Source: Cephaloticoccus sp.
GTDB lineage: Bacteria > Verrucomicrobiota > Verrucomicrobiia > Opitutales > Opitutaceae
Assembly (NCBI GenBank): GCA_030833445.1
Contig: JAURHD010000021.1
Location: 1 to 40,147, forward strand
Length of the DNA: 40,147 nt
Direction of reading: 5' to 3'
Shown here: positions 26,864-32,700 of the stretch, piece after piece
Numbering within the stretch: position 1 is the first letter of the stretch
Layout of the letters: every line of letters begins with the position of its first letter
Notes under the pieces: generated by a model
Seen by the model: the letters and a program-made list of their open reading frames with translations, nothing else
Database searches by the model: none
What the model was told of the DNA's origin: nothing
Program-made: the position numbers and the translations under genes

Positions 26864-27391
26864 ATGGATCACTATAACTTTGCCCAGACTTTTCGCCAAC
26901 TATACGACAAGGCTGTAACGCTCTACGCCAAGGGCCAGCGCGGTGCGGAATCGTATTTCAATGCGGAGGAACTCGCATTTCTCGCCAGCAACGGGATCAC
27001 TGCCCAGTATCTCTACGATTACGCCGAGGATAAAAATAACTATGACGATCCCAGTTACGACATTGCCCTGGGCATCGAACTGATCCGGCGCGATTATTTC
27101 CTCAATGCCCAACTCGGTGTGTCCAGCGGCAAGATTGCCGATGCCGATACCTGGCCGGATAAAACTGCTGCGGTAAAAGGCATCGAGTGGTTGCCCCGCA
27201 TTCTGCCCAAGGTCCGCGCCAAACTGCGGGGTGAACTTCCCGCATCCATGATGTATTGCTGCGGAGGTGACCGCCGCTTCTTCAAGACCAACAATATTCA
27301 CCCCGTGGAGTTTTTGAACCTGGCTTGGCGGCATATTGATGATGACAACGCCATCATCGACTGGGTGGCGGCACGAGCCTCCCAAAAGTAA
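26864..27391 (+). CDS. DUF5069-like protein
   Basis: 175 residues, cytoplasmic. The C-terminal half (LPRILPKVRAKLRGELPASMMYCCGGDRRFFKTNNIHPVEF split over 128-168, ending IIDWVAAR) resembles by eye the DUF5069 pattern: KARAKL, then a Cys and an Asp-Arg-Phe-Phe stretch, and a terminal W-V helix. The N-terminal 100 residues are helical and include ELAFLASNGITAQYLYDYAED. The function of DUF5069 is unknown. It lies 60 bp after rnr in the same direction and meets polB tail to tail with an 18-bp gap. Confidence 0.7.
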   Translation: MDHYNFAQTFRQLYDKAVTLYAKGQRGAESYFNAEELAFLASNGITAQYLYDYAEDKNNYDDPSYDIALGIELIRRDYFLNAQLGVSSGKIADADTWPDKTAAVKGIEWLPRILPKVRAKLRGELPASMMYCCGGDRRFFKTNNIHPVEFLNLAWRHIDDDNAIIDWVAARASQK

Positions 27392-27409
27392 CGCGCTCGG
27401 GACCTTGCC

Positions 27410-29587
27410 TTAGAGTAACTCGCCCTGCACTCCACCCTCCGGCTTGATGTCGAGAAAGGTGGCATAGCGTTCCTGCCAATCGTCCAGTTTCTTCAGATAA
27501 TACTTGGGGTCGTAGGGTGCATGCGCGCGATCAAACTCCTGCAAGGGACGGGCCCGCTGCCAGTCACTCGTCTGGCCTTTCTCGCGGGGCAAAATGTAAT
27601 AACTCACCCGGTCGCCCATGCGCGGACGGGGATTCAGCTTCAAGGCGACCTCCGCCGAGGCCCGGCGGGGTTTGCCACCCGCAGCCATGTTCTGCTCATA
27701 GGCATCTGGATTTTGACTGAGGATTTCACTTTTCGCCAATTCCGTTAACGGCATATCCAGAGCAGCAATTTTTTCCCTATAATCCAGCAATAGGGTTTCC
27801 GTCGGTTCGGCGGTCACACCCAACAGATATTGAATGAGGCGATCTGATAATTTTTTCAGGTAAGGTTCGATACCGCGCGAACGCAGCGCACTGCCTTTGA
27901 GGGTGATTTTCTTGCCGTCGTAGAGCGCATAGTTCTTCGCCTTGTAGCAAAACATCGAAGCATAACTGCCGTCGTATTCGAGTTCGATGCCGGGTGGCAA
28001 AACGCCCGACATCTTGGCCAGCAACTTGTCCGGCTCATCAAAGTAATCGGATGATGACAGATAAATTCCATCGGTATCGGCCTCGAGCACCGTGCATCCC
28101 AAGCGGTCGAATTCATCGATCAGCTTTTGCAACAATTCACGCCCCAGTCGGGTAACTTCCGCCGCAAGATCACCGTCGCCAAAGCGAGCGCCACTGAAAC
28201 CAAGATAGCCGTAGAATGAATTGATGAGGATTTTAAATGTTGTCTGGCGGGCGGTATATTCCGCGCGGAGGGATTCACTCTCGGCCGTGCGCGCGAGAGT
28301 TTTATACTTCAGTCGGTATTCTCGCAGTTTTTTCAGCATCGGGATAAACACACCCAACGAATCATTCTTGGGATTTCGACCGATGTGCATGAGTAGACTC
28401 GGATAAAGAGAGGCCACGTCAAAATGGAGGACCTGCTTGAAAACCCCCTCCTGGAAACTCTTGGTGTAGCCTCCCTCAAACGCAGATATCTCCGGCGGCA
28501 TCGGGCAGCTCTGCCGGGCATGATAGTATTCCTCAAGAAACAGCAGATCGACCTTGGTTGATGTTCCCCGCAGGGTCGCTTCCTGCAGGGTCAGCGGAAA
28601 GGCCCGCGCCTGCTCGAAATAGGTTGGCAGCAACAGGCTCCCCACCCCTTCGGTCTCGCGTAAATCATCCCCCAAATAGGCAAGAAACCGATTCCGCTCC
28701 TCCCGGTAGCACTGCGCGATCTGGTTGCCAGCAATATAAGTGCGTTCCGCGCTATCCTCGTCCGTGATGCCAAAATACACAGCCACGTCCTTGAGTCCGT
28801 AGGAACTGAGCTCACGGGTCGTGATGTCGTAAATCTGCACCAGCAGATAGGTGTCGATCACGGCCCGACCCGGCAGGTCACAACGCGGAAAATCCACCCA
28901 GCGCTCAGCTACCTTGAGTCGGCTGTTGCGAAAGGTGGCGTTCTGCCCAAACCGGCCCCACGCACAGGGCACCTTGTGGCGACGGCAGCGCAACCGCAGA
29001 AAATCCAAATCGAATTTGAAGATATTGTGCCCCTCGATGACGTCGGGATCGAGTTCGTCCAATGCGGCGTTGAGTTCCACTAACAATTGCTTCTCCGCCG
29101 CGTCAGTTTCCTCGGCCAGCACCAACATGCGATTTTCGCCGTTCACTCGCAGTCCGATCGCCAACACCCGGTCACCGGGATTACGGGCATCGCTGAATCC
29201 TCCCTTCTCCGACGAAGTCTCGATGTCCAGCTGGCAACGACGCAATTCCCCGAACGTCATATCCGCATACAAGCGCTCCCGCCCCTGCAAGAGACACTGA
29301 CTCTCCCATGGTCGCAGCACATCCACTGCACCGGACTCCCGGGCAAGTTTCACAAATGATTGGAGGCCATCAAGGGTCTCCGCGTGAGCCAGCATATTAA
29401 AGGGACCTGAGCCCTTCAGTTCTTCTATCGCAATTCCACTGACCGCTTCTTCGACCGGACGATTTTGTAACCAGGCAAAGGGCCGATACGCCAAACGGGC
29501 TTCGTGGCGAACCCCACCAGGTTGACGGCGGGTGATGTGGGCTTGGCCAAGATCGTCGACCCAAACGCCACAGATTGAATCACCCAT
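27410..29587 (-). CDS. Family B DNA polymerase with 3'-5' exonuclease domain
   Basis: A 725-residue DNA polymerase of family B (archaeal/Pol II type). The exonuclease motifs are present: Exo I LDIET (120-124), Exo II EGHNIFKFD (185-193) and a Yx3D Exo III (YLGDD, 304-308). The polymerase motifs are HFDVASLYPS (motif A, 388-397), FKILINSFYGYLGF (motif B, 451-464) and EADTDG (motif C, 502-507). All catalytic acids are there, so it should be active. ATG 29587 has GAAGG at 8 nt; a TTG at 29602 would add five residues. It follows a small membrane protein gene by 11 bp. Likely roles are repair or lesion bypass; this is inference from Pol II. Confidence 0.9.
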   Translation of the reverse strand: MGDSICGVWVDDLGQAHITRRQPGGVRHEARLAYRPFAWLQNRPVEEAVSGIAIEELKGSGPFNMLAHAETLDGLQSFVKLARESGAVDVLRPWESQCLLQGRERLYADMTFGELRRCQLDIETSSEKGGFSDARNPGDRVLAIGLRVNGENRMLVLAEETDAAEKQLLVELNAALDELDPDVIEGHNIFKFDLDFLRLRCRRHKVPCAWGRFGQNATFRNSRLKVAERWVDFPRCDLPGRAVIDTYLLVQIYDITTRELSSYGLKDVAVYFGITDEDSAERTYIAGNQIAQCYREERNRFLAYLGDDLRETEGVGSLLLPTYFEQARAFPLTLQEATLRGTSTKVDLLFLEEYYHARQSCPMPPEISAFEGGYTKSFQEGVFKQVLHFDVASLYPSLLMHIGRNPKNDSLGVFIPMLKKLREYRLKYKTLARTAESESLRAEYTARQTTFKILINSFYGYLGFSGARFGDGDLAAEVTRLGRELLQKLIDEFDRLGCTVLEADTDGIYLSSSDYFDEPDKLLAKMSGVLPPGIELEYDGSYASMFCYKAKNYALYDGKKITLKGSALRSRGIEPYLKKLSDRLIQYLLGVTAEPTETLLLDYREKIAALDMPLTELAKSEILSQNPDAYEQNMAAGGKPRRASAEVALKLNPRPRMGDRVSYYILPREKGQTSDWQRARPLQEFDRAHAPYDPKYYLKKLDDWQERYATFLDIKPEGGVQGELL

Positions 29588-29598
29588 GGCCGCAACCT

Positions 29599-29946
29599 TC
29601 AAAATGGCTTAAGGTAAACCATCACGAGTGCCGCCGCACTCAATACGATCGTCAGGATAATCCACAGCGAAGCTCGTTCGCGTTTACGATAGGCCAAGCC
29701 GGTAAAGGCCGACAAGCCGAGCCAACAGACCAGTTTCACGATGGCCCAGCCACCCGAGAAATCATACTGCACCTTCCACATGCGCATGCCGGTGAGAAAC
29801 ACCAGCAACGTGGCAATCCCGCTCCACATCAGTGTTTTTTTGCGCGTTTCCGGTGATCCGGCGCACGCATAGAATGTCGAACCAATCAGCCCGATAGCCG
29901 CCAAAACATGAATGATATGGAGCGCGTTTAGTTCTGAAGTATTCAT
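29599..29946 (-). CDS. Small four-helix membrane protein
   Basis: 115 residues with four predicted membrane helices (about 9-29, 39-57, 66-85, 93-112) and short basic loops (SPETRKK, AYRKRERAS). Histidines near the first helix (NALHIIHVLA) recall small haem- or quinone-associated membrane proteins, but no haem pair can be shown. It has no Shine-Dalgarno site; its ATG lies 11 nt after the 3' end of the 6S RNA on the same strand, so it may be translated from a 6S read-through transcript. polB follows closely. Confidence 0.8.
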   Translation of the reverse strand: MNTSELNALHIIHVLAAIGLIGSTFYACAGSPETRKKTLMWSGIATLLVFLTGMRMWKVQYDFSGGWAIVKLVCWLGLSAFTGLAYRKRERASLWIILTIVLSAAALVMVYLKPF

Positions 29947-29957
29947 GGAAAATTAAA

Positions 29958-30143
29958 TTAACACCCCGCCTGTGCCGTGCGCCCAAAGGCTCTGGTCCTT
30001 TTTATGTTAAGGTGGGCACCTCCTCCACAGCGTTTGCTTTCCGATTTACGGCCTAGCAGCTTCCGCGGCGGTCTTGGCTCCCGTATATTATCAAAGGCGA
30101 AGAGCTGTTTAATGAAAGCGCCTCGAACACTGCAGGGTGTTAA
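29958..30143 (-). ncRNA. ssrS: 6S RNA
   Basis: A 186-nt stretch without an open frame folds as a 6S RNA. The ends form a 12-bp closing stem: TTAACACCCTGC (30143-30132) pairs with GCGGGGTGTTAA (29969-29958) with one G:U. Next, GTG and GCGC pair with CAC and GCGC around a small internal loop holding TGTTCG-type sequence, as in many 6S RNAs. A large central bubble follows, and the 3' side of it has a short hairpin, GCCCACCTT with AAGG. 6S RNA binds the sigma-70 holoenzyme as a promoter mimic in stationary phase. A well-placed promoter lies at 30149-30176. Assignment is by eye; a covariance model would decide. Confidence 0.8.
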
Positions 30144-30148
30144 CGTTT

Positions 30149-30176
30149 AAGGTAGGTTGCCGGCCCGTGCCGTCAA
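30149..30176 (-). promoter_or_regulatory. Promoter of the 6S RNA
   Basis: On the minus strand TTGACG (30176-30171) and TACCTT (30154-30149) are 16 bp apart, and the inferred 5' end of the RNA at 30143 is 5 nt beyond the -10 element. The -35 matches consensus at five of six positions. Confidence 0.6.
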
Positions 30177-30189
30177 ATGCGAATCACGC

Positions 30190-30645
30190 TTAGGGCGAAC
30201 TCTGCTCCAAGTGCTGGATAATGAGTTCCTGCATGGTGGCCAAAAATAGATAACAGACAAAGGTCTTGCGGGTTGCCTCCGGCAGCTCCTCGATGTCGAC
30301 GTTGCCGCTTTCCATGGACTCTTCATCGATGGTCTGCAGGTGATTGGAACGTAGCGCCAGGCGCACGGCCGCACAGGCCCGAATCACGTGGTCCGTATTG
30401 TCCTCATCCAGCACAATCGCACCTTCCCGGAAGAACTCCTCGTTAAATAAGTCCAACAGGGTCTTGAGATCCGCATTTTGGGACTCAAGCAAGTCATCCT
30501 GCCATGCATCCCGCAACTCCACGTCGAGCTGCTCTAGTTGCTGGGGTGCGGCCAATTCAGTTCTCAACCCCTCAGCCAGTTCGCGAATAACATCCAATAG
30601 AGGCGCCACCACCGTAACACTTAATCTGACCTCAATGCGTTTCAT
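30190..30645 (-). CDS. Helical conserved protein coupled to clpS
   Basis: 151 residues, cytoplasmic, almost entirely helical and acidic; no family recognised. Notable stretches are VVAPLLDVIRELAEGLRTEL near the start and KTFVCYLFLATMQELIIQHLEQ at the end. ATG 30645 overlaps clpS by 14 nt, suggesting translational coupling; a TTG at 30654 is the only other option. Actinobacteria carry an unrelated-looking helical gene (DUF2017) next to clpS, so a partner of ClpS or the ClpAP system is conceivable, but this rests on position only. It is followed by the 6S RNA promoter. Confidence 0.8.
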   Translation of the reverse strand: MKRIEVRLSVTVVAPLLDVIRELAEGLRTELAAPQQLEQLDVELRDAWQDDLLESQNADLKTLLDLFNEEFFREGAIVLDEDNTDHVIRACAAVRLALRSNHLQTIDEESMESGNVDIEELPEATRKTFVCYLFLATMQELIIQHLEQSSP

Positions 30646-30937
30646 CGGGTTCAAGCACGGCGGTCAGATGCCATTGTTGCAGCGTGTGGGCATAGGCCTC
30701 GGCCTTTTCGCGAAGACCGGACCAGACAACGGAACGACCTTGCTCGTGCACTTCCATCATGTGTTTGCGGGCAGTCACTTCGTCAAAACCGAAGACCTTT
30801 TTAAAGACCATCACGACATATGACATGAGATTAACGGGGTCGTTCAGCACTATGACGTGCCAAATACCCTCGAGTTGCAATTCCGTCAGCGTCTCCGCCT
30901 CCGGCGTAGTCTGTGTTTTCGCCCAGACCAAGGTCAT
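30632..30937 (-). CDS. clpS: ATP-dependent Clp protease adaptor ClpS
   Basis: The N-recognin adaptor that delivers N-degron substrates to ClpAP. The 101-residue protein has the core WHVIVLNDPVNLMSYVVMVF (residues 26-45 or so), with the substrate-pocket N-D-x-x-x-x-M spacing, then FGFDEVTARKHMMEVHEQGRS and a C-terminal AEAYAHTLQ helix. ATG 30937 overlaps the proS stop as ATGA, so translation is coupled. The disordered N-terminal tail is short. No clpA or clpC is in the window. Confidence 0.93.
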   Translation of the reverse strand: MTLVWAKTQTTPEAETLTELQLEGIWHVIVLNDPVNLMSYVVMVFKKVFGFDEVTARKHMMEVHEQGRSVVWSGLREKAEAYAHTLQQWHLTAVLEPDETH

Positions 30938-32700
30938 GCCTTTGCCGCCGCTTCCCGCACCGCGGCTGCGATCAATGTTTCCGCCTCCGCGACCGGGATT
31001 TTCTGCACATCCTTGGCCGTGCGCCATTTCATCTCGATGACCCCTTCCTTGAGGCCGCGCCCCCCCACCGTCAAACGCAACGGGATGCCGATGAGATCTG
31101 CGTCTTTGAATTTTACCCCCGGTCGTTCTTCGCGGTCATCGATCAAAACATCCGCCCCAGCCGATTCGGCTGCAGTGGCCAGTTTGCGCGCCATCTCCAT
31201 GGCGGCGGAATCCTGTTGATCAAGACAGGTAACAATCACTTGGAACGGAGCCGTATTCCACGGCCAGATGATGCCGTCGCCATCGTGACTTTGTTCAATG
31301 ATGGCCTGCATAGTCCGACTAATCCCAATGCCATAGCAGCCCATGACCATTAGGTGGGATTGCTTCGCGTCGTCCGTATAGACCGCGTTGAATTTTTCGG
31401 AATATTTGGTGCCGAGCACGAACACGTGTCCGACCTCAATGCCACGACGACTCTTGAGGGGTTGGCCAGAAATCGGACAAGGTTCACCAGCCCGCACGCG
31501 GCGGTAATCACCAAACTTGGTAATGGCGAGATCGCGGGTCACATTCACATTACGCAAATGAAAGCCGTCCCTATTGGCGCCGGTCACACCGTTACCTATG
31601 AGGCGAATGGCCTGATCGGCGAAAACACCTGCCAAAGCGCCCTCGCCTTTGATAGATCCGCGCACCGCGCCCAAGCTGCCGGGCTTCGCGCCCAAAAGAG
31701 GAACGATTTCTTCCAGCGTCGCCGGGCGGACGACGCCAAAACCAAGACTGCCGAGTTTCGCTTCTTCAAGTTCGTCGCTACCGCGTAGGATCACGAGGAA
31801 TGGTTTCCCATCGCCGATATAAACGAGGGTCTTGAATTGGGCATCAGGCGCCACATTGTATGGATCCTTCGACAAGGCGTTGATGGTAGTCACCCCCGGC
31901 GTGGCAAATTCCTCAATGGCTCCACATGGCGCCGCATCGGCCAGGTCCTTTGGCACCAGGCCACTGGTCGCCTTCTCGCGATTCGCGGCATAGCCACTCG
32001 ATTCATCATAGATAATGTCATCATCACCGATTTCCGCCGGCACCATGAATTCGTGTGAATAGTCGCCGCCCATCACACCCGTGTCTGCTTCAACGGGAAT
32101 CGCCAGCACGCCGAGCCGTTTGAAAAAAGCCACATAGGCCGCTTTCATGCACTCGTAGGATTTGATCGCCCCTTGCTCATCCGCATCAAAGGAGTAGGCA
32201 TCCATCATCACAAATTCACGCGCCCGCATCAAACCGTAGCGCGGCCGAATCTCATTTCGGAACTTGGTCGCGATTTGATAGAAATTTTTGGGTAAATCCC
32301 GGTAGCTGTTCAACTCGGCTTTGATCAGCGGAGTAATCACCTCTTCATGGGTGGGCCCGAGCACGAATTCCGGTTCCGAAGACAGCCGTTTGCCATTTCC
32401 AGCCGTATCCGCCCGAAACATAATTTCACGGGTCGCCGCCCAACGCGGACCATTCTGCCAGTTTTCCGCCGGATGCAGGTGCGGCATCCACAATTCGATA
32501 CCACCTGCCCGGTCCATTTCTTCACGGCAGATCTGGGTGATCTTGCGCATGACCCGCTGGCCAAGGGGCATGTAGGTGTAGAGGCCGCCACTGAGTTTGC
32601 GGACAAGACCGGCGCGCACCAACAACTTGTGCGAAGCGATCTCGGCGTCAGCCGGGCTTTCTTTTAAGGTAGGGATAAAATACTGCGACCAGAGTTTCAT
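30934..32700 (-). CDS. proS: Prolyl-tRNA synthetase (bacterial type)
   Basis: A class II synthetase charging tRNA-Pro. The 588 residues show motif 1/2 regions (LPLGQRVMRKI-like YMPLGQRVMRK; RDLPKNFYQIATKFRNEIRPRYGLMRAREF), a central INS editing domain (about 230-390), motif 3 (CYGIGISRTMQAIIEQ) and a C-terminal anticodon-binding domain. The large insertion marks it as the bacterial, not the eukaryote-like, form. ATG 32700 starts MKLWSQYFIPTLKE, as in the family; the frame is open further upstream. It is the first gene of a coupled run with clpS. Confidence 0.95.
   Translation of the reverse strand: MKLWSQYFIPTLKESPADAEIASHKLLVRAGLVRKLSGGLYTYMPLGQRVMRKITQICREEMDRAGGIELWMPHLHPAENWQNGPRWAATREIMFRADTAGNGKRLSSEPEFVLGPTHEEVITPLIKAELNSYRDLPKNFYQIATKFRNEIRPRYGLMRAREFVMMDAYSFDADEQGAIKSYECMKAAYVAFFKRLGVLAIPVEADTGVMGGDYSHEFMVPAEIGDDDIIYDESSGYAANREKATSGLVPKDLADAAPCGAIEEFATPGVTTINALSKDPYNVAPDAQFKTLVYIGDGKPFLVILRGSDELEEAKLGSLGFGVVRPATLEEIVPLLGAKPGSLGAVRGSIKGEGALAGVFADQAIRLIGNGVTGANRDGFHLRNVNVTRDLAITKFGDYRRVRAGEPCPISGQPLKSRRGIEVGHVFVLGTKYSEKFNAVYTDDAKQSHLMVMGCYGIGISRTMQAIIEQSHDGDGIIWPWNTAPFQVIVTCLDQQDSAAMEMARKLATAAESAGADVLIDDREERPGVKFKDADLIGIPLRLTVGGRGLKEGVIEMKWRTAKDVQKIPVAEAETLIAAAVREAAAKA

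Follow-up and report, generated by a model that had tools for sequence, protein, structure and literature searches.

The minus strand of the stretch analyzed here (the window, 40,147 nt of contig JAURHD010000021.1 from a Cephaloticoccus sp. of the Opitutaceae) carries what, judged by sequence, is a genuine 6S RNA gene, the single copy found in its own genome, with a primary-sigma-type promoter of its own. 6S RNA is a small RNA that holds bacterial RNA polymerase in check. In most of the family, the 6S gene is placed directly before genes for a membrane protein and a B-family DNA polymerase (polB). We consider it likely that 6S RNA is transcribed from its own promoter, ends at its closing stem and an adjoining U-rich tract, and is partially read through into both downstream genes. 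The features of the region are:

29959..30142, minus strand: 6S RNA (ssrS homologue), predicted mature extent (RF00013, fold, and covariation in 31 sequences)
30132..30142, minus strand: closing stem, 5' arm, 11 bp (fold; covariation helix 1)
29959..29969, minus strand: closing stem, 3' arm, 11 bp (fold; covariation)
30171..30176, minus strand: -35 element TTGACG (sequence; family conservation)
30149..30154, minus strand: -10 element TACCTT, family form TANNNT, after a 16-nt spacer (sequence; family conservation)
29947..29958, minus strand: U-rich tract AUUUAAUUUUCC, proposed terminator tail or processing site (T content in family loci)
29599..29946, minus strand: 115-aa four-helix membrane protein of the SirB/DUF1516 kind (Pfam in relatives; structure model)
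27410..29602, minus strand: polB, B-family DNA polymerase, with its first ATG at ORF codon 6 (Pfam DNA_pol_B and DNA_pol_B_exo1)
30190..30654, minus strand: DUF2017 gene, following proS and clpS (Pfam; synteny)

Identity, distribution and promoter of the 6S RNA gene

A first-pass annotation of this DNA had proposed a 186-nt 6S RNA with a 12-bp closing stem, together with a search using the Infernal 6S covariance model. At the place that it named, there is a full-length match to RF00013 (SsrS) on the minus strand, from 30141 to 29959, covering model positions 1 to 187 and scoring 54.9 bits (E = 2.3e-8), above the curated gathering cut-off of 46.4 bits; the only other above-cut-off Rfam match in the 40-kb window is one tRNA. 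The annotation had named, as evidence against itself, the lack of a match here combined with a better 6S gene elsewhere; this does not apply, because the window locus is the sole RF00013 match at E ≤ 0.001 in its own assembly (2.9 Mb, 72 contigs, 97.75% complete). The single-sequence fold of positions 30142 to 29947 has an 11-bp uninterrupted outer closing stem and an open central region, in agreement with the central bubble described earlier, and only 1 of 200 shuffles is equally stable (z = -2.94). The proposed element and its stem are thus upheld, with revised dimensions: the model and the fold predict a length of 183 to 184 nt, and the stem has 11 bp.

Comparison of family members supports the same structure. 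In an alignment of 31 sequences, both-side changes occur in 18 of 45 pairs, compared with 7.9 in shuffles, and none of 500 shuffles reaches this value; 96.5% of cells are paired, a proportion that drops to 35 to 48% when the partner is shifted by one to three columns. The closing stem (covariation helix 1) has both-side changes in 6 of its 9 pairs, and covariation retains the rod expected of 6S RNA, with closing stem, central bubble, and apical stem. Parts of the central bubble, which in 6S RNAs is the template for pRNA synthesis, are conserved in the 6S alignment.

Searching 57 genomes, including that of the window, with RF00013 gave 48 with a match at E ≤ 0.001, 45 of them above the cut-off. 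Within the family, RF00013 alone matched 31 of 37 genomes, and a second 6S model built from those 31 sequences added three more, so that 6S is found in 34 of 37 genomes of this first draw. The three family genomes with no 6S match are G001 (91% complete, with polB cut by a contig end), G019 (67%), and G036 (84%). In a wider draw with stricter filters, 148 of 288 Verrucomicrobiota genomes have a match and 140 do not. From this draw, 103 matches were above the cut-off, of which eight outside the family (G223, G102, G251, G308, G178, G220, G136, and G216) were left out, as were 45 matches below the cut-off.

The family counts given below refer to a first set of 34 loci and a second set from 15 further genomes, 49 in total, of which 48 are assessable for the downstream gene; counts in the 3' flank leave out G034 and G037, where the contig stops at 6S, and the polB count leaves out G034 and G035. 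Figures for other Verrucomicrobiota rest on 82 loci, 40 fetched separately, 25 from the 288-genome draw, and 17 from the 57-genome search. A second member of the genus (G007) has both 6S and the membrane-protein gene in the corresponding position.

That the window match arose by chance, and that the element is not a 6S RNA, is scarcely credible. The score lies only 8.5 bits above the gathering cut-off, but the covariation was reached by none of the shuffles, the promoter is conserved at the 6S 5' end, there is no second match in the genome, and the element recurs in almost all family genomes searched (34 of 37).

The promoter proposed in the first-pass annotation, TTGACG/TACCTT at the 5' end of the RNA, is borne out by its conservation. 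The -10 element sits 7 nt before the first 6S model base, and in 44 of 49 family loci the exact motif TTGACN-N16-TANNNT is found at the 5' end of 6S; elsewhere, there are four such sites in 0.94 Mb on both strands, and the window has a single one, both strands counted, at 6S. A looser test (in place, a -35 element matching at 5 or more of its 6 positions and a -10 element whose second base is A and whose sixth is T) is passed by 32 of 34 first-set loci, where shuffles predict 0.18, and by 14 of 15 in the second set. In the other families of the order the looser test is passed in 4 of 17 loci (0.29 expected), which counts against our preferred explanation. A strict sigma-70 consensus scan of positions 27000 to 31500 lists three promoter-like sites (2.9 in shuffles) and three terminator-like sites (4.8 in shuffles), and the 6S promoter is absent from the list because TACCTT shares only 3 of 6 bases with TATAAT and is poor by the Escherichia coli consensus. 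Given this miss by the strict scan, the assignment of a primary-sigma-type promoter rests on conservation of the motif, and we take the predicted promoter to be real.

Genes flanking 6S

Upstream of 6S, on the same strand, are proS, clpS, and DUF2017, with the 6S promoter just past the DUF2017 stop codon. DUF2017, which in the window is in tandem with clpS (30190 to 31027), is found upstream of 6S, in the same orientation, in 29 of 34 first-set loci. In one locus from another family (G045), the DUF2017-clpS pair is on the opposite strand, just downstream of 6S.

The membrane-protein gene begins with the ATG at 29946, 12 nt after the 6S end rather than the 11 nt counted earlier. The short gap described for the window is therefore confirmed, but its tightness is not fixed among relatives: of 30 loci, 19 have a gap of 8 to 34 nt and the other 11 one of 45 to about 160 nt (two of these 30 proteins, G013 and G020, were left out of the protein alignment since their starts are unclear). 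The window protein has Pfam matches to DUF6962 and DUF1516 only, both under the curated cut-offs, and among 28 such proteins scanned, including that of the window, SirB is matched in 19 and DUF1516 in 10 at E ≤ 0.001. Cephaloticoccus capnophilus has a 65% identical relative of the gene. The structure model has four helices and a mean pLDDT of 95; a PDB search with it gave no match at E ≤ 0.001, and a structural route to function was dropped in spite of the good model. The polB ORF overlaps the 3' end of the membrane-protein gene by 4 nt.

The linkage of 6S to the two genes, which the first-pass annotation had also put forward, is supported by synteny. In 31 of 33 assessable first-set and 12 of 15 second-set loci (43 of 48 overall), 6S has the membrane-protein gene no more than 200 nt behind it on the same strand, and polB starts 800 nt or less from the 6S end in 24 of 32 assessable first-set loci and 12 of 15 in the second set. 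We regard the link to both genes as a sound inference from this gene order, and on the same grounds 6S appears directly before the membrane-protein and DNA polymerase genes in most of the family. The five unlinked loci are G010, G185, and G303, whose loci yielded no membrane protein, together with G018 and G099. G010 has no membrane protein that we could find next to either 6S or polB, with polB on another contig; in G018, the membrane-protein gene and polB are together, on a different contig from 6S; and in G099, the membrane-protein gene is 1.8 kb from 6S. Of 16 assessable loci from the order's other families, none was seen to have the membrane protein beside 6S.

Elsewhere in the phylum a different gene follows 6S. 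In Verrucomicrobiota outside the class of the window, 36 of 51 assessable loci have a same-strand rarA at most 200 nt past 6S, and 26 of these 36 genes are no more than 50 nt from 6S, measured to the start of the aligned part; the identity of rarA was confirmed by Pfam MgsA_C on one locus. In five rarA loci the gap is as small as 1 to 5 nt (example loci outside the class are L101, L155, L160, L108, and L117). No rarA was found behind 6S in 27 loci of the order outside the family, or in three more loci of the class. The phylum thus appears to have two arrangements in which 6S directly precedes a DNA-maintenance gene, either rarA or the membrane-protein gene with polB, although the pattern may be coincidence because other downstream genes occur too.

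The first-pass annotation also noted that the ATG lacks a Shine-Dalgarno site, and took this as a sign of a leader fused to 6S. The site is indeed absent, but we rejected the argument drawn from it, because the absence is general: with GGAG, GAGG, and AGGA as Shine-Dalgarno 4-mers, and uncurated greedy ORF calls as gene starts, none is found at the first ATG of any of 32 window genes, and the observation is uninformative as to a special leader. At any of the first three ATGs, a site is found in 3 of the 32 genes, with 2.9 expected at random places. The counts in family loci are 0 of 18 for the membrane protein, 0 of 20 for DUF2017, 0 of 3 for polB, 2 of 7 for clpS, and 1 of 3 for proS. Translation in this genome may start without a Shine-Dalgarno site. 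A search for 16S genes, to see whether their 3' ends lack an anti-Shine-Dalgarno sequence, found no 16S gene in the genomes queried, and one candidate matches no Rfam family.

The 3' end of 6S and expression of the downstream genes

The U-rich tract AUUUAAUUUUCC directly abuts the closing stem and fills the whole gap to the ATG. At least five T residues occur at positions +2 to +10 after 6S in 31 of 33 first-set loci (the exceptions are G003 and G021) and in 14 of 15 second-set loci, compared with a background of 3.1% of all 9-mers from family loci. Mean T content at these positions is 0.64 for gaps of up to 35 nt (19 loci) and 0.67 for longer ones (11 loci), the gaps being measured to the start codons, and at +14 to +34 it is 0.22 and 0.28, respectively. 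Because the tract is alike at short and long gaps, it belongs to the 6S end and not to the start of the protein gene; this suggests that 6S may end there and leak into the ORF, as opposed to being cut from a long mRNA.

By this measure, the tract is seen in 8 of 16 loci in the other families of the order and 7 of 25 in other Verrucomicrobiota; the counts are lower outside the family because the T run begins inside the model hit there. With a frame of -6 to +14, picked after seeing the +2 to +10 results, a run of at least four T is present in 72 of 81 other Verrucomicrobiota loci, where 6.1 are expected; for the family, the counts are 23 of 33 loci in the first set (1.7 expected) and 11 of 15 in the second (0.8 expected).

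In 6S, a GC-rich stem leads straight into U residues, which is the shape of an intrinsic terminator. The whole RNA would here be the terminator loop, the 3' arm of the closing stem coming about 160 nt after its 5' partner; this spacing would be unusual for an intrinsic terminator, and the U tract alone cannot separate termination from RNase processing. 6S probably ends at the U tract and leaks into the next genes, as with ssrS-ygfA of E. coli.

Of 31 linked loci, 30 showed no hairpin terminator separating 6S from the membrane-protein gene in a scan of the first 130 nt behind 6S. The exception is G021, which has a strong one (-31.1 kcal/mol), and the membrane-protein gene there therefore probably needs a promoter of its own. 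The unlinked loci point in both directions: in G010 a strong hairpin terminator follows 6S by 10 nt, which counts in favor of read-through at linked loci, and in G018 no hairpin terminator was found after 6S, which counts against our preferred explanation. In the other families of the order, the same 130-nt scan gave a hairpin terminator in 4 of 16 assessable loci. As to promoters, no TTGACN-N16-TANNNT motif was found 0 to 200 nt downstream of 6S on the same strand in the 49 family loci. The downstream gene could have a promoter of some other kind, located within 6S or the gap.

We favor the following explanation. Transcription of 6S would start at the TTGAC-N16-TANNNT promoter just upstream, and the 3' end would be set at the closing stem and U-rich tract, perhaps by leaky termination or perhaps by trimming. 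The RNA is predicted to fold into a rod with a central bubble and, as we infer from its family membership, to bind RNA polymerase holoenzyme; 6S RNAs characteristically bind the sigma-70 form and reach high levels in stationary phase. The membrane protein and polB would most likely be expressed in part by read-through from the 6S unit, as a lineage-specific counterpart of ssrS-ygfA. The lack of conservation of gap length counts against this explanation, as do the lower U-tract counts outside the family.

The stem and tract would also suit a closed unit, in which they form an efficient terminator and the membrane-protein gene and polB are transcribed from a weak promoter of their own, situated in the 3' part of 6S or in the gap and yielding a nearly leaderless mRNA; the tandem order would then reflect compact packing. 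This is a possibility that we consider unlikely but worth keeping in view, as several observations are in keeping with it: the U tract stays beside the closing stem whatever the gap to the ORF, the T runs at the 6S end in those 72 of 81 other Verrucomicrobiota loci are found with various neighbors, G021 has its hairpin between 6S and the gene, and, by eye, A/T stretches in the U tract of the window could act as a -10 element. However, the A/T pattern of the gap is, again by eye, not common to relatives, none of the 49 loci has a promoter of the 6S type in the 200 nt that follow, and terminators with so long a loop are not known as a rule.

The first-pass annotation had suggested instead that 6S may be cut from a longer mRNA for the membrane protein and polB, which might tie these genes to stationary phase. 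The tandem linkage that it noted is sound, and a 6S derived mainly from such a precursor, with its maturation and the expression of both genes obligately coupled, would agree with the conserved order, with the gaps of 8 to 34 nt in 19 of 30 loci, and with the scarcity of both hairpin terminators (none found in 30 of 31 linked loci) and 6S-type promoters behind 6S. Cutting of this kind is nonetheless very improbable, as 5 of 48 assessable loci have no linkage, the membrane protein is behind 6S in 0 of 16 assessable loci of the order's other families, the gap varies and reaches about 160 nt, and the U tract suggests that the RNA ends at 6S itself. Obligate cutting is the weaker form of the idea, and an RNA that has its own start and end and leaks onward would appear to fit better.

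More speculatively, the 6S stem and U tract might act throughout the Verrucomicrobiota as a leaky terminator metering the genome-maintenance genes directly behind, with 6S refolding or RNA polymerase occupancy changing the output on entering or leaving stationary phase. The metered genes would be those for the membrane protein and polB in the Opitutaceae, and rarA in other classes. We put this forward as a doubtful extension of the read-through explanation.

Comparison with known 6S loci

Chae et al. (2011) reportedly dealt with Rho-dependent termination, 3' processing of ssrS, and ygfA expression in E. coli. The likeness to this locus, ssrS-ygfA (fau), is that a 6S gene with its own promoter is followed by a protein gene on the same strand, and a pyrimidine-rich stretch is present behind ssrS too. 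The gene itself is different, in that ygfA/fau encodes a 5-formyl-THF cyclo-ligase, whereas the window has the SirB/DUF1516-like gene and polB. The gaps also differ, since the annotated fau start of E. coli MG1655 is 75 nt after ssrS and 19 of 30 family loci have only 8 to 34 nt. We note, by eye, an in-frame ATG in MG1655 (L127, positions 360 to 445) 21 nt after ssrS and 54 nt before the fau start; its use is not known, and the ssrS-fau gap could thus be short too. There is one promoter motif in the window, compared with the two promoters given for E. coli in PMC10406553. Co-transcription of E. coli 6S with the downstream ygfA is described in the relevant part of PMC2848244, and Coxiella burnetii ssrS maps to the 5' UTR of ygfA, as stated in an excerpt of PMC4064990. 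Because of these two cases, a 6S unit standing before a protein gene is already known.

Gram-positive loci offer further parallels, which we take from extracts of a single paper (PMC8414754). In lactic acid bacteria and Bacillus, 6S loci have rarA and uspA as neighbors, and the neighborhood is conserved at the family level. Lactic acid bacteria thus resemble the present case in having a family-level 6S neighborhood, and resemble the Verrucomicrobiota outside the class of the window in that rarA adjoins 6S; however, according to the same extracts (PMC8414754), rarA is upstream of 6S in those bacteria, and a terminator follows 6S in most species. They differ also from the family of the window, in which the downstream genes are those for the membrane protein and polB. 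In Streptococcaceae, 6S is thought, in those extracts, to share a transcript with the next gene, as we suppose here, but that gene is a tRNA (tRNA-Lys) and not a protein gene as in the window (PMC8414754).

A literature search by title and abstract opening, in which subscription papers were mostly out of scope, found no paper on 6S RNA in Verrucomicrobia or under the stem Opitut-; Barrick 2005 and Wehner 2014, the main 6S surveys, were outside the scope of this negative result. The present findings document, for the Opitutaceae, a 6S RNA whose promoter is defined and whose operon position is conserved. If read-through is true, separate lineages would each have 6S at the head of a unit, for DNA polymerase B or for RarA, and why 6S genes stay next to particular protein genes would become a testable question. 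As far as examined, what sets this family apart is its pair of downstream genes, a gap that is often very short, and its promoter motif, and the arrangement is a family-specific version of one known from other bacteria.
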